Shown here: positions 21,643 through 27,397 of the stretch, one piece after another
How positions within the stretch are numbered: the stretch's first letter is position 1
Layout: every line of letters starts with the position of its first letter
Virus record (IMG/VR): IMGVR_UViG_3300047560_000667
Span: 1-27,996 of that record
From: a virus
Direction: 5' to 3' (one strand)
DNA length: 27,996 nt
Notes under the pieces: model-generated
Database searches by the model: none
What the model was told of the DNA's origin: nothing
What the model saw: only the letters and a program-made list of their open reading frames with translations
Position numbers and translations under genes: made by a program

Positions 21643-22494
21643 ATGACAAAGACAATTCTAAATTTCAATGGCGGCCTAGACAGCACCTATGTTTTATGGA
21701 AGTTGCTCGCAGAAACACAAGATGATGTGACAGCTTTAACATATAGATTTCCAGAAAAAAATGCCACATTAGAAGTTGCAATGCACGATGATGATGTAAT
21801 TCAAGAAAAAAAGATTGAAGAGGTGAAATCTGTTGTAAATTGGTTAAAAACTAATATCAGAGATTTCACACACACAATTATCGATTATGATGATACATAT
21901 CTAGATGATGTCACTGATTTCGGTGATACACATTTTCCAAAAACCATTGAAGTTTATGTTGTTAAATATGGTGTACAAAACGATTATGATAAAATCGTCA
22001 GCTCATTTGAAAAAGAAAACGATGGATTTTCTTATATGCGTTATCACGATATTGAAACTCCAAAAAGACCGGCAGCATCTTCTGCAAAAGGTGTATTTAA
22101 GAAAATAGCTACAAAAGGAGAAATATCTTTTCCCCTTTTAGATATGAAATATCATCAAGCATATGCTCTGAGAGAATTGCCTACCACATTATTGAATTTA
22201 ACAAAATCGTGTGATGCTAATAATGGTTTACCTTGTGGCATATGCTTCAAATGTAGCAAAAGAAAGTTCTTCATTCAGTGTATTGGAGAAGGTAAAACGA
22301 ACGAAGAAATACAGTCTGTCATAGACGAGAATAGCATAACACCAGATGGTAAATGGATTTCTATGAAATGGTGGTTGCGCGATTATATAAGCACATATAA
22401 GGGTTTCGTTGCTGAGGAAGATTATGATACTGTCTATAATAAAGAAACTCAAGTTTGGCCTATGCCTATTTGGCCCACTTCTTTTAAACTCTAA
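21643..22494 (+). CDS. QueC-like PP-loop enzyme (7-cyano-7-deazaguanine synthase family)
   Basis: The N-terminus FNGGLDSTYVLW has the PP-loop (SGGxDS form, GGLDS at residues 10-14) that binds ATP. The C-terminal half has a QueC-type zinc site: C190 in KSC, then C198-x2-C201-x2-C204 (PCGICFKCSKRK), followed by RKFF. QueC makes preQ0 for queuosine or deazaguanine DNA modification; phage copies are known in genomes with modified DNA. No QueD, QueE or FolE is seen in this window, so the actual substrate is uncertain and another adenylating enzyme is possible. AAGG lies 7 bases before the ATG. Its last 71 bases overlap the next gene. Confidence 0.75.
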   Translation: MTKTILNFNGGLDSTYVLWKLLAETQDDVTALTYRFPEKNATLEVAMHDDDVIQEKKIEEVKSVVNWLKTNIRDFTHTIIDYDDTYLDDVTDFGDTHFPKTIEVYVVKYGVQNDYDKIVSSFEKENDGFSYMRYHDIETPKRPAASSAKGVFKKIATKGEISFPLLDMKYHQAYALRELPTTLLNLTKSCDANNGLPCGICFKCSKRKFFIQCIGEGKTNEEIQSVIDENSITPDGKWISMKWWLRDYISTYKGFVAEEDYDTVYNKETQVWPMPIWPTSFKL

Positions 22495-23383
22495 TGTAAT
22501 AGCAAAAGACCTCACAATAGTAACCCATACACCGAGTGGTGGTTACTTCATAAGCAGTAAGCTGGTATCAGATTTTCTGCCTAGATATTTGCCTGATACT
22601 TCGGTAAAAATCAAGGTTGTACCTGGTGCCAGTGGTATTGTTGCTGCGAACTACCTTTATGAAGTAGCGCCTAGAGATGGTAGCACCATAGGTACATTAT
22701 ACAACACCTATATTCTACATTCTATTATCGAAAAAAACCTAACCAAATATGATCCAGCCAAGTTCACATATTTGGCTTCTGCAATCGACGGTAGAAAAGA
22801 ACCAATGATGCTATGGTCTAGAATTGCCGGCACAAATGTTGTTGGTACTGAATCATCATTACCGTTTAGTTATGCTACACTTTTGAAGAAAATGATTGGC
22901 CTAGACGTTAAAGAAGTCCGAGGATATCCTGATGGAACAATGCAGAGAAATGCCTTTGAGAAAAGGGAGATCGATCTGTTCTTCAATAGTCTTGGTGGTA
23001 TGAAACTATCTTCTAAAGCTTTGCTGAATGATAGCACCGTCAGGCCTATCCTACAATTTGGTAACGGAACAATCAGGCATCCAGAATATCCTGAAGCACC
23101 AACCGTCATGGAATTATTGACAGAAGATAAAGCCAAGAGGGCTTTACAAGCGATAGAAAACCAAGTATTATTATCGAGGTTGTTCGCCGCACCACCAGGA
23201 ATACCAGATCAGGAAACTAAGACGTTGCGTAACGCATTATGGAATGTATTGCATGATGATGATTATATCGCAGCCAGTAAAAAGCTTGGTCTTGATGTGA
23301 GTGCGGTCGACCATGAAACCATAGAAAAAGCCGTAAAGTATATAATGAAAAACCAAGATGTTGTCTTAGAATATCTGAGGTGA
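22424..23383 (+). CDS. TctC/Bug-type periplasmic solute-binding protein
   Basis: From ATG 22424 the protein has a signal peptide (MILSIIKKLKFGLCLFGP, cleavage likely after NVIA, residue ~27), so it is exported. The mature part KDLTIVTHTPSGGYF, then VKIKVVPGASGIVAANYLYE and APRDGSTIGTLY follows the Bug/TctC order (IVV-PGGxxD, NKPGAxGxIAxxxxAxAxPDGYTL) of tripartite tricarboxylate transporter binding proteins. Later FAAPPGIPDQETKTLRNAL agrees with the family's second domain. About 319 residues, the usual length. The start lies inside the QueC-like gene, behind GAGGAAG. The ligand is unknown and no TctA/TctB is seen; the phage role is unclear. Confidence 0.78.
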   Translation: MILSIIKKLKFGLCLFGPLLLNSNVIAKDLTIVTHTPSGGYFISSKLVSDFLPRYLPDTSVKIKVVPGASGIVAANYLYEVAPRDGSTIGTLYNTYILHSIIEKNLTKYDPAKFTYLASAIDGRKEPMMLWSRIAGTNVVGTESSLPFSYATLLKKMIGLDVKEVRGYPDGTMQRNAFEKREIDLFFNSLGGMKLSSKALLNDSTVRPILQFGNGTIRHPEYPEAPTVMELLTEDKAKRALQAIENQVLLSRLFAAPPGIPDQETKTLRNALWNVLHDDDYIAASKKLGLDVSAVDHETIEKAVKYIMKNQDVVLEYLR

Positions 23384-24836: not shown

Positions 24837-24870
24837 TTTGAGTAATAGAAAATTATATAGGAGAGTAAGG

Positions 24871-24906
24871 AGAGGGTCTATCAGAAATGGTAGGCCCTCT
24901 TTTGTT
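24871..24906 (+). terminator. Terminator before phoH
   Basis: AGAGGGTCTA (24871-24880) pairs over 10 bp with TAGGCCCTCT (24891-24900), with one G-U; loop of 10, then TTTTGTTTTT. It ends the upstream transcript and shows that phoH starts at 24922, not earlier. Confidence 0.85.
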
Positions 24907-24921
24907 TTTAAAGGAGATACC

Positions 24922-25629
24922 ATGAGCAAAAAGCCTAAGAATAACTCAAACAACAAGAGCCAGATGCAGCATAATCACTTTGAGCTTCGCACAATAAAAC
25001 CACTAACCGCGAATCAGCAAATGACATTCGACTATTACAGAAAAGGCTATAATCTAATGTTGCACGGCTATGCAGGAACAGGCAAGACATTTTGTGCCTT
25101 CTATCTTGCACTAGAAGAGTTATTGACAGGCAAATCAAACTATGATAAGATCATTCTCATTCGCTCTGTTGTACCTTCGCGTGATATGGGATTTCTACCA
25201 GGTTCTATTCGTGACAAGATAGCCATCTATGAAGAACCATATAAGGAGATTTGTGATGATCTATTTGGTCGTGGTGATGGATATAATATACTCAAAATGA
25301 AGAACATGGTGCAATTCACAACCACATCATTCCTTCGTGGTATCACCTTCAATAATGCAATAGTGATCGTTGATGAAACGAACAACATGACGTTTCAGGA
25401 AATCGACACTGTGATGACAAGGCTTGGTAATGAAAGCCGTGTGGTATTTTGCGGTGACTACAGACAATCAGACTTGAATAAGCCACATGAGAAGACTGGT
25501 ATCCGTGAGTTCATGGCCATCACCCGTAGAATAAATACGTTTAAGCATGTTGAGTTTGAAAAAGAAGACATTGTTCGCTCAGGTGTGGTCAGAGACTATA
25601 TCATTAATAAGACGGAACTAGGTTTATGA
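24922..25629 (+). CDS. phoH: PhoH-like ATPase
   Basis: The 235-residue protein has the P-loop GYAGTGKT (residues 49-56), NYDKIILIRSVVPSRDMGFL, a Walker B VIVDETNNMTF with the Asp-Glu pair, and VVFCGDYRQSDL. This is the PhoH family, cytosolic ATPases related to RNA helicases and common in marine and rhizobial myoviruses; the exact role is unclear. ATG 24922 has AAGGAG 7 bases upstream and lies after a terminator; an upstream TTG frame start would read through that terminator. It overlaps the nuclease gene by four bases. Confidence 0.93.
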   Translation: MSKKPKNNSNNKSQMQHNHFELRTIKPLTANQQMTFDYYRKGYNLMLHGYAGTGKTFCAFYLALEELLTGKSNYDKIILIRSVVPSRDMGFLPGSIRDKIAIYEEPYKEICDDLFGRGDGYNILKMKNMVQFTTTSFLRGITFNNAIVIVDETNNMTFQEIDTVMTRLGNESRVVFCGDYRQSDLNKPHEKTGIREFMAITRRINTFKHVEFEKEDIVRSGVVRDYIINKTELGL

Positions 25630-26309
25630 AAACATTTAATTATGTGGAGGGGCTGCCTGAATTGCGGTCCCTCCCAGTTGAAGAATTTGGTGGCAAACGA
25701 CATTACATATCACCAAACGGTAAGAAGCTTCCATCTGTCACAACCGTTCTAGGATATTTCAAAAAAGAAAAGATCAATGAGTGGCGAAACAGAATTGGTC
25801 ATGAGGAAGCGCAGAAGATTACCAATCGTGCTGCAACCAGAGGCACCAAATTCCATAGTATGGTAGAGAGATATATCAGCAATGAACACTCTACTTTATT
25901 TGAAGATGTTATGCCTGATATGAAACAGGCCTTTCGTGATGCACAACCAGCACTTGACAGGATAGACAATATACATTATATTGAATCTCCACTTTGGTCA
26001 GAAAGATTAGGATTGGCTGGCAGAACCGATGTGATTGGTGAGTTTGACGGTAAGCTTTCTATCATTGACTTCAAGACTTCTTTGAAGCCTAAGAAAGAAG
26101 AATGGATCACCAATTACTTTGAACAAGGTGCTGCATATTCTCTCATGTATAAAGAGCGAGTTGGTAGTCCTATCGATCAGATCGTAATCATCATATCAGT
26201 TGATGGTATGACAGAGCCACAAATCTTCGTAAAAGAAACGATTGATTATGTCGATTCACTAATCAATAAGGTATGGCTCTACAGAAAGGAACATCCGCAT
26301 GTTTGTTGA
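25626..26309 (+). CDS. PD-(D/E)XK exonuclease (RecB/Cas4-like)
   Basis: In order: KLPSVTTVLGYF (N-terminal helix), GTKFHSMVERY (His of the motif), IESPLWSERLGLAGRTDVIG (with Asp135) and LSIIDFKTS (D148, K150), then a conserved Gln in FEQGAAYSLMY. These are the active-site elements of phage RecB-like single-strand exonucleases, which process DNA ends in recombination and replication. 227 residues. It overlaps the phoH gene by ATGA and the next gene by 11 bases. Confidence 0.88.
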   Translation: MKTFNYVEGLPELRSLPVEEFGGKRHYISPNGKKLPSVTTVLGYFKKEKINEWRNRIGHEEAQKITNRAATRGTKFHSMVERYISNEHSTLFEDVMPDMKQAFRDAQPALDRIDNIHYIESPLWSERLGLAGRTDVIGEFDGKLSIIDFKTSLKPKKEEWITNYFEQGAAYSLMYKERVGSPIDQIVIIISVDGMTEPQIFVKETIDYVDSLINKVWLYRKEHPHVC

Positions 26310-26520
26310 TCTTTGGGTTGTAAGCATTTTCTCAATTCTGTTTGGTGTCTGTGCTGTATGGAATCGCATGAGAGGTATTCATGTTGGTATTGAGAAGACC
26401 CTAGATAAGCTTGTAGAAGATAGAATTATTCGCATCGTAAACGACCGTGTTGTGCGATATACACCAACAACCAGAAGAAGAAATAAGAAGACCTCTATTG
26501 ACACCTCAACTCAAGTATGA
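26299..26520 (+). CDS. Small membrane protein (73 aa)
   Basis: One membrane segment (DLWVVSIFSILFGVCAVW, residues ~4-21) is followed by a charged helix (LDKLVEDRIIRIVNDRVVRY) and a basic Thr/Ser-rich end. It resembles a small conserved T4-like phage membrane protein, unknown function. AAAGGA precedes the ATG. The TGA stop is followed at once by a TATAAATA element. Confidence 0.62.
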   Translation: MFVDLWVVSIFSILFGVCAVWNRMRGIHVGIEKTLDKLVEDRIIRIVNDRVVRYTPTTRRRNKKTSIDTSTQV

Positions 26521-26528
26521 TATAAATA
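26521..26528 (+). promoter_or_regulatory. Late promoter TATAAATA before tmRNA
   Basis: A perfect copy of the T4 late -10 element TATAAATA follows the stop codon of the upstream gene. The acceptor piece of the tmRNA begins a few bases later, so this may set transcription of the tmRNA at late time. The assignment uses knowledge of T4; the phage's own consensus is not proven. Confidence 0.55.
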
Positions 26529-26530
26529 CA

Positions 26531-26890
26531 CTTGCTGAGGTCGTTGAGGCGAACAGAATAGACGATTCGGACGCGGGGGCAGTACCCGCCGCCTCCACCA
26601 TGGGTACATTAAGAGCCGTACTGGCAAAGCCAACGAAGGATTCTTGAGAAAGAACACCAGTCAGGAGCCCTACTTGATGTATCTTTGATGGGGGCGAAAT
26701 AGGTTCGACGGGTTGTAGTAAAAGAACGAGTAGACCAAAAGCAAAAAAACTAAATGCAAACGATAACTTTGCTCCTGAGGCTTTCGCTCTAGCAGCGTAA
26801 TCCCCACGGGTATGGGCTCCACCTCGGAACAGAACGGGCCTACTTACGCCGCTGTCAGTACTGTGGGAAGTGCAGATGGATAACACTAGG
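26531..26890 (+). ncRNA. ssrA: tmRNA, circularly permuted two-piece type
   Basis: The 3' CCA half precedes the 5' half. Acceptor piece: T-arm GCGGG/CCCGC (26573-26577 with 26585-26589), acceptor strand CGCCTCC (26590-26596), discriminator A and CCA ending at 26600. Coding piece: GGGGGCG from 26690 pairs with CGCCTCC over 7 bp (one G-U), then AAATAGGTTCGACGGG, the tmRNA D-loop signature, and the tag frame at 26756-26800 (resume codon GCA). TCGTT (26541-26545) may pair with AACGA as helix P2, and CCCAC/GTGGG around 26857 fits P5. The spacer 26601-26689 should be removed in maturation. The 5' end and the 3' end of the coding piece are approximate. With SmpB it would rescue stalled ribosomes. Region 26521-26940 holds no accepted protein gene. 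Confidence 0.88.
26756..26800 (+). other. tmRNA tag reading frame
   Basis: The codons from GCA 26756 to TAA 26798-26800 give ANDNFAPEAFALAA, with a further Ala added from the charged tmRNA. It starts like other tags (ANDN) and ends LAA, the ClpX/ClpA recognition end. Alphaproteobacterial tags are of similar length (e.g. ending FAVAA or LAA). Confidence 0.88.
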
Positions 26891-26919
26891 ACGCCGTTCG
26901 AATCGGTACAGTGGCACCA
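26848..26919 (+). tRNA. tRNA-like element with CCA end (degenerate)
   Basis: GCCGCTG (26848-26854) pairs with CAGTGGC (26909-26915) over 7 bp (one G-U). A T-arm with the standard loop TTCGAAT (26897-26903) lies exactly at tRNA distance, followed by A and CCA. A possible D-stem is GTAC/GTGC. The anticodon arm does not fold well, the total is short (about 72 bases with CCA) and the first half overlaps tmRNA helix P5, so a functional tRNA is doubtful. It may be a remnant or a processing signal at the end of the tmRNA transcript. Confidence 0.3.
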
Positions 26920-26940: not shown

Positions 26941-27177
26941 ATGGCTAAGAACCCTTTTGAAATCCGCCTTGAGCTTCTTCAGATTGCCAATGGTATTCTC
27001 TCAGATAAGAACTGGGCTGAACGCAATCGTCTTCAAGATGATTGGAACACTCAGCGTGAAATTGCCATGGACAATAGCAGAGGTAAAGTTCCTCCTGCGC
27101 CCACTTTCCCCACCGTCAATGAAGATGACATCATCACCTTGGCTCGCAAGTTGAATGAGTTTGTTTCCAATGGCTAA
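26941..27177 (+). CDS. Conserved small phage protein (78 aa)
   Basis: MAKNPFEIRLELLQIANGIL starts a helical protein with ERNRLQDDWN and PPAPTFPTVNEDDIITLARK, ending in KLNEFVSNG. 'NPFEIR.E.L..A' starts are shared by small proteins in T4-like phages next to gene 33-type genes, as I recall; function unknown. ATG 26941 has AAGGA about 9 bases upstream; an in-frame GTG at 26911 overlaps the tRNA-like end and is rejected. It overlaps the next gene by eight bases. Confidence 0.7.
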   Translation: MAKNPFEIRLELLQIANGILSDKNWAERNRLQDDWNTQREIAMDNSRGKVPPAPTFPTVNEDDIITLARKLNEFVSNG

Positions 27178-27397
27178 TAAAGAAGAAATCATCGAGTTCT
27201 CTATGCAGATTGAAAAGCTTGCAAAGGAGAAGAATACTTCCTATATGGATGCTATCATTCTCTATTGTGAGAATACTGGATTTGAGGTTGAGGTGGCCGC
27301 AAAGCTTATCTCTAGCAACCTCAAGTCCAAGATCAAGATGGAAGCAGAAGAGCTTCACTTTCTACCTAAGTCCAACACCATAAAGTTGCCTCTATGA
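27170..27397 (+). CDS. Late transcription co-activator, gp33-like
   Basis: In 75 residues the protein follows T4 gp33's C-terminal half by eye: an N-terminal helix (IIEFSMQIEKLAKE), NTSYMDAIILYCENTG (gp33 has MSYLEATTAFLEE), VAAKLISSNLKSKI and EAEELHFLPKSNTIKLPL (gp33: QSEAIDENLL ... KTNTLDFLL). Gp33 binds the host RNA polymerase flap and the sliding clamp, and with gp55 allows late transcription from TATAAATA promoters. That fits the TAAATA elements in this window. Start ATG 27170 lies inside the preceding gene. Confidence 0.65.
   Translation: MANKEEIIEFSMQIEKLAKEKNTSYMDAIILYCENTGFEVEVAAKLISSNLKSKIKMEAEELHFLPKSNTIKLPL

Follow-up and report, generated by a model that had tools for sequence, protein, structure and literature searches.

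Results

A permuted tmRNA gene among T4-like neighbours

The DNA analysed here, an IMG/VR virus record of 27,996 bases that we call the window, carries a circularly permuted, alpha-type two-piece tmRNA at positions 26534-26842. The locus is composed of the following features, among them a tRNA-like element (TLE).

24838-25626, + strand: PhoH-like protein (Pfam PF02562, phrog_170)
25626-26309, + strand: PD-(D/E)XK exonuclease, syntenic marker upstream of the tmRNA (phrog_298, E 5e-70)
26498-26503, + strand: -35 box TTGACA of the tmRNA promoter, 17 nt before TATAAATA
26521-26528, + strand: TATAAATA, -10 position and putative T4-type late-promoter box, sole copy in the window
26534-26600, + strand: tmRNA acceptor piece (Rfam, covariation, G3-U70; 5' end placed from the promoter)
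26539-26542, 26573-26589, 26590-26596 and 26597-26600, + strand: acceptor-piece parts, namely P2 strand GGUC, T-arm, CGCCTCC and ACCA
26601-26689, + strand: intervening segment, expected to be excised, ending in TTTGAT before GGGG
26602-26613 with 26673-26684, + strand: closing hairpin of the intervening segment (end-to-end pairing)
26690-26842, + strand: tmRNA coding piece with GGGGGCG, D-loop, shortened PK1 region and tag (ARAGORN, Rfam, covariation)
26733-26736 and 26813-26842, + strand: coding-piece parts, namely P2 strand GACC and 3' hairpin
26756-26800, + strand: tag reading frame ANDNFAPEAFALAA and stop UAA (ARAGORN)
26848-26919, + strand: TLE, 72 nt with ACCA end (model R1, 94 bits)
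27155-27397, + strand: gp33-like late-transcription coactivator, syntenic marker downstream of the tmRNA (PF16805, E 3.7e-20)

The Rfam models alpha_tmRNA (115.2 bits, cut-off 50, E 4.7e-31) and tmRNA_permuted (109.9 bits, cut-off 47) match far above chance, and ARAGORN calls a permuted tmRNA (tmRNA*) with the tag ANDNFAPEAFALAA and then a stop. Both scans therefore agree with a preliminary description of this DNA, which had proposed such a gene with the acceptor half before the coding half. The CCA end indeed lies at 26600 and the first base of GGGGGCG at 26690; GGGGGCG and CGCCTCC pair at 7/7 positions, including the G3-U70 wobble, across the 89-nt spacer 26601-26689, and the D-loop signature GGTTCGACGGG is present, as had been described. 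The extent given there, 26531-26890, is too long on the 3' side: the tmRNA closes with its 3' hairpin near 26842, and a separate tRNA-like element follows from 26848 on. The alanine identity pair G3-U70, the encoded CCA and a tag reading frame with a stop after the resume codon are all present. The label T4-like was also borne out, since T4 RNase H, PhoH and the gp33 coactivator, besides the PD-(D/E)XK exonuclease, are neighbours of the tmRNA, and the locus has the order PhoH, PD-(D/E)XK exonuclease, tmRNA, gp33 known from the methylophage Melnitz. Elsewhere in the window, a QueC-like gene with a partial PHROG match (21643-22494, phrog_1550) is overlapped by a 324-aa open reading frame without PHROG match (22409-23383).

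Conservation among phage relatives

To follow the gene beyond the window, the flanks of the best 80 exonuclease relatives in IMG/VR were scanned with ARAGORN and a motif search. ARAGORN called a permuted tmRNA in the fetched flank of 43, and the motif search added others that it had missed. About 40 diverse IMG/VR phage contigs carry a permuted tmRNA near the exonuclease. No permuted tmRNA match was obtained in the phages C48C1, phiM7 and S-CREM1, all of which have the exonuclease. The parsed set holds 41 distinct phage tmRNAs, including those of the isolates Melnitz and Phosso, and the tag was parsed in 40.

Judged by comparison of these sequences, the acceptor stem, P2 and the 3' hairpin covary. 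The acceptor stem occurs in 11 forms with 7/7 pairs in all 41 sequences, a count to be read with the finder's own demand of at least 6/7 pairs; P2 also has 11 forms, and just one shuffle in 10,000 attained its own pairing; the 3' hairpin, whose ACAGAA loop is conserved, comes in about 20 forms. The search for SmpB gave nothing in the window, where the preliminary description had likewise seen none, in nine relatives of 89-174 kb or in Phosso, and host SmpB is therefore presumably used.

A shortened PK1 region

A pseudoknot, PK1, upstream of the tag is typical of the tmRNA family, and the Rfam models do not need it. The window tmRNA seems to lack a family-typical PK1, as judged by the length of the region and the absent alpha PK1 consensus. 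The distance from GGGG to the tag, 66 nt in the window, is 61-67 nt in 27 of 40 phage tmRNAs and 80-87 nt in the other 13. Bacterial genes were measured in two sets. Those from a pattern scan, picked by acceptor and D-loop sequence and not by PK1, gave 82-97 nt (among 94 listed), and a class-wide alphaproteobacterial draw of 50 loci, mostly top-scoring matches plus 20 from further down the list, gave 81-89 nt in 41 genes (9/50 unparsed). A shortening by about 20 nt is thus seen in 27/40 phage versus 0/134 parsed bacterial tmRNAs, 134 being a conservative total for both sets. We found no earlier report of a shortened PK1 region in phage tmRNA in the literature. PK1 helices are absent from the tmRNA of Oenococcus oeni and from mitochondrial tmRNA (PMC1168896).

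The shortened region might lower the efficiency of the tmRNA, and it would fit an altered RNA that inhibits or competes with the host tmRNA instead of rescuing ribosomes. This has a precedent in mycobacteriophage DS6A, whose CDS-less tmRNA form inhibits the endogenous tmRNA in E. coli, according to a study cited in PMC11915505. However, the phage tags keep an AANDN or ANDN start and the LAA end in 39 of 40 cases, the frame and its stop are kept in nearly all relatives, and G3-U70 is invariant in the 40 tmRNAs with a parsed tag. A pure inhibitor would not need a degradation tag, and its conservation therefore argues against an inhibitor, which we regard as unlikely. The intact alanine identity and tag rather favour a working tmRNA, as far as sequence can tell.

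A hybrid promoter

Of 37 distinct phage tmRNA upstream regions, 21 contain exact TATAAATA at -74 to -81 relative to the CCA, and in 20 of these 21 it is preceded at exactly 17 nt by TTGACA, TTGACT or TTGCCA (at most one mismatch). At the corresponding place it is absent from both bacterial ssrA sets. In large relatives, TATAAATA without a -35 box precedes the genes for the major head protein (two genomes), tail tube, baseplate wedge and tail tube cap; it is thus common to late structural genes there, as expected of a T4-type late promoter. In most TTGAC-type promoters of the large relatives the final hexamer is TATAAT or a different one whose last base is T. The tmRNA promoter joins both types, since it combines a TTGACA-type -35 with the late-gene box, and it would accordingly be a sigma70 -35 set on a box that seems to behave as a phage late-promoter box. 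A scan with the promoter and CTCCACCA alone returned 13 contigs, 10 of them with a coding piece pairing at 7/7 positions; two of the remaining three stop at the contig edge and one has no coding piece. No earlier report of TTGACA-N17-TATAAATA on a phage tmRNA was found in the literature.

The same hybrid, TTGACA then TATAAATA, stands before an Hsp20 gene in the large relative G002 (L244:7128-7598, minus strand) and also before an unknown open reading frame in that phage. The Hsp20 case suggests a small class of early-plus-late genes.

The intervening segment

The ends of the intervening segments pair better within than between sequences in the parsed phages (-15.9 versus -9.8 kcal/mol), and bacterial segments show the same to a smaller degree. 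Within the segment of a 174-kb phage contig (L049:5668-6159, shared with L046 and L047) lies a complete 144-aa HNH homing-endonuclease-like open reading frame, which has its own TATAAATA box. Inside an excised segment, such a reading frame should be harmless for the mature tmRNA.

A tRNA-like element behind the tmRNA

The TLE is built of a 7-bp covarying stem, a D-like arm, a UUCGAAU T-loop and a 14-nt arm of the form AGAU(N)GANAA(N)ACU, which stands in place of the 17-nt anticodon arm of a tRNA. ARAGORN did not call it, and Rfam gave no match at E up to 5. Successive pattern scans found it in 5, then 11, then 42 viral stretches beyond the window, and model R1 scored 67-96 bits on the 38 searched sources including the window. 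In an alignment of 31 distinct sequences, which was fitted to the model and is hence biased towards the structure, 92.2% of cells pair, all seven stem pairs show double changes, and two-sided changes number 118 cells against 37 in shuffles; pairing drops to 26-41% when the structure is slid. The stem and D-like arm are paired in 98.7-99.5% of cells, and the T-stem, of just 2-3 bp, in 63.7%. The structure had been drawn from a MAFFT alignment of five sequences, which agrees with this picture. Folding of the single sequence is unremarkable (z -0.36), and the structure is visible by comparison only.

Read from sequence context, the TLE lies within tmRNA intervening segments (e.g. L076, 5993-6064; L323, 1746-1817; L346; L345), before the acceptor piece (L338), after the tmRNA (window, L319, L318, L344), after COG2908 RNA (e.g. 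L321, 6061-6132; L324; L330) and in or beside tRNA arrays (e.g. L341, 5243-5315; L343; L358). Whole-contig search of seven TLE contigs showed that six carry a permuted tmRNA, three of the seven being known beforehand to do so. Five phage contigs (L321, L324, L326, L328, L330) combine a beta-type permuted tmRNA with COG2908 RNA followed by the TLE, and this COG2908-TLE unit sits behind a TATAAATA box in the upstream sequences inspected.

A decayed tRNA gene that happens to adjoin the tmRNA would account for the tRNA-like elbow elements and for the presence of the TLE in tRNA arrays. Moreover, 190 alphaproteobacterial genomes gave just weak matches to the TLE model (at most 34 bits), of which five were checked and proved to be ordinary tRNA-Thr and tRNA-Asn. 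Against decay stand the near-fixed 14-nt arm, the covariation in all seven stem pairs over the 31 distinct sequences and the repeated placement within tmRNA intervening segments, which make it an unlikely explanation. By blastn against 50,697 phage records, three TLE versions gave nothing significant: the window copy had no match at E up to 1, and the other versions had weak partial Microcystis phage matches (E 6) and one fragment (E 0.2). No description was found in the literature searched, where absence is no proof, nor any earlier report of such an element directly behind a phage tmRNA. The TLE is apparently an undescribed RNA. On balance we hold it probable, with some reserve, that it is a tRNA-shaped phage RNA with a near-fixed 14-nt hairpin for the anticodon arm, which travels with phage translation RNAs and in the window forms one unit with the tmRNA under the hybrid early/late promoter. 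One guess at its role is a processing handle; another is that of a tRNA decoy or SmpB-binding decoy in infected cells.

Probable inheritance within phages

The preliminary description took the gene as a capture from the host. As a recent event, this found no support. Recent capture of the present host's ssrA would be in line with the alpha type of the tmRNA, and the tree, built from tmRNA pieces too short to resolve it well, neither proves nor excludes a single phage origin. Phages are also known to acquire host genes. However, one and the same locus recurs in about 40 divergent phage contigs, and tmRNA distances follow exonuclease distances (Mantel r 0.73, p 0.0002), a correlation that favours inheritance within phages; the phage-type promoter and, in the window's class, the shortened PK1 region are absent from the 134 parsed alphaproteobacterial ssrA genes. 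Recent capture is thus very improbable. The tmRNA appears to be an inherited trait of a T4-like phage group and not a fresh theft from the host, and it likely derives ultimately from alphaproteobacterial ssrA by an ancient event. A non-functional relic or attachment-site remnant of an integrative element, for which the use of ssrA as a common integration site (PMC11915505) could be cited, is scarcely credible for a complete gene with promoter, tag and several helices covarying across relatives.

Discussion

The whole is best explained, with a probability of roughly 0.85, by a working permuted two-piece tmRNA that is inherited in T4-like (Kyanoviridae-type) phages, uses host SmpB, is expressed from a hybrid promoter and probably shares its transcript with the TLE. 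One transcript would start just downstream of TATAAATA; the hybrid promoter suggests that host sigma70 RNA polymerase makes it early in infection and gp55/gp33-type machinery makes it late. Excision of the intervening segment by tRNA-processing enzymes is established for the permuted tmRNA family, and the intervening hairpin would be removed in this way here; the same transcript probably also yields the TLE by processing. The acceptor and coding RNAs would stay paired via the acceptor stem and P2, and the acceptor RNA may be charged with alanine through G3-U70 and bind host SmpB. The assembled tmRNA would rescue stalled ribosomes in infection and add a ClpXP-type tag, presumably for host ClpXP.

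With these results the phage two-piece tmRNA, so far a curiosity, becomes the trait of a lineage. Its expression programme, in which one promoter is perhaps read by both host sigma70 and the phage late machinery, can be tested, and a class is defined in which a shortened PK1 region persists over many phages. The TLE would constitute a new phage RNA class; as it recurs next to tmRNA and tRNA genes, a role in translation, in the processing of RNA or in defence against immunity that cuts tRNAs can be tested directly.

A phage-borne permuted tmRNA has already been published for methylophage Melnitz, in a paper that counts 133 phage tmRNA structures, 53 of them two-piece (PMC9004378), and the kind is therefore known. 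The closest system is the ssrA of Methylophilales phage Melnitz (gene 86, MZ577097; PMC9004378), together with Pelagibacter phage Mosig; the features compared are those of Melnitz. Both Melnitz and the window have an alpha-type permuted two-piece tmRNA in a T4-like phage, the order PhoH, PDDEXK nuclease, tmRNA and late-transcription coactivator (gp33), and TTGACA-N17-TATAAATA in the same place, a promoter termed early in the Melnitz paper (PMC9004378). Melnitz differs in its longer pre-tag region (82 versus 66 nt), in a glutamine riboswitch just 3' of the tmRNA and in giving no TLE match in the 75 kb searched. Alphaproteobacterial ssrA (Rfam RF01849 / RF04321) shares the permuted order, the G3-U70 acceptor stem, the T-arm and the ANDN tag, whereas in the genes parsed the PK1 region is longer (81-97 nt between GGGG and the tag), exact TATAAATA is missing and most intervening segments are shorter. 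Sinorhizobium phage Phosso (PV764938) also bears a permuted alpha-type tmRNA (L002:3446-4091), unannotated in its 469-kb genome, but it is a jumbo phage with another gene neighbourhood, a kept PK1 region and a 410-nt intervening segment. As for the TLE, a tRNA-Ala gene carried in a permuted tmRNA's intervening sequence (PMC11915505) is similar in placing a tRNA-type RNA there; that one is an intact tRNA gene, whereas the TLE has no normal anticodon arm and occurs also outside tmRNA genes. The window tmRNA is thus a genuine member of the published kind, distinctive in its shortened PK1 class and its promoter and joined to the TLE.
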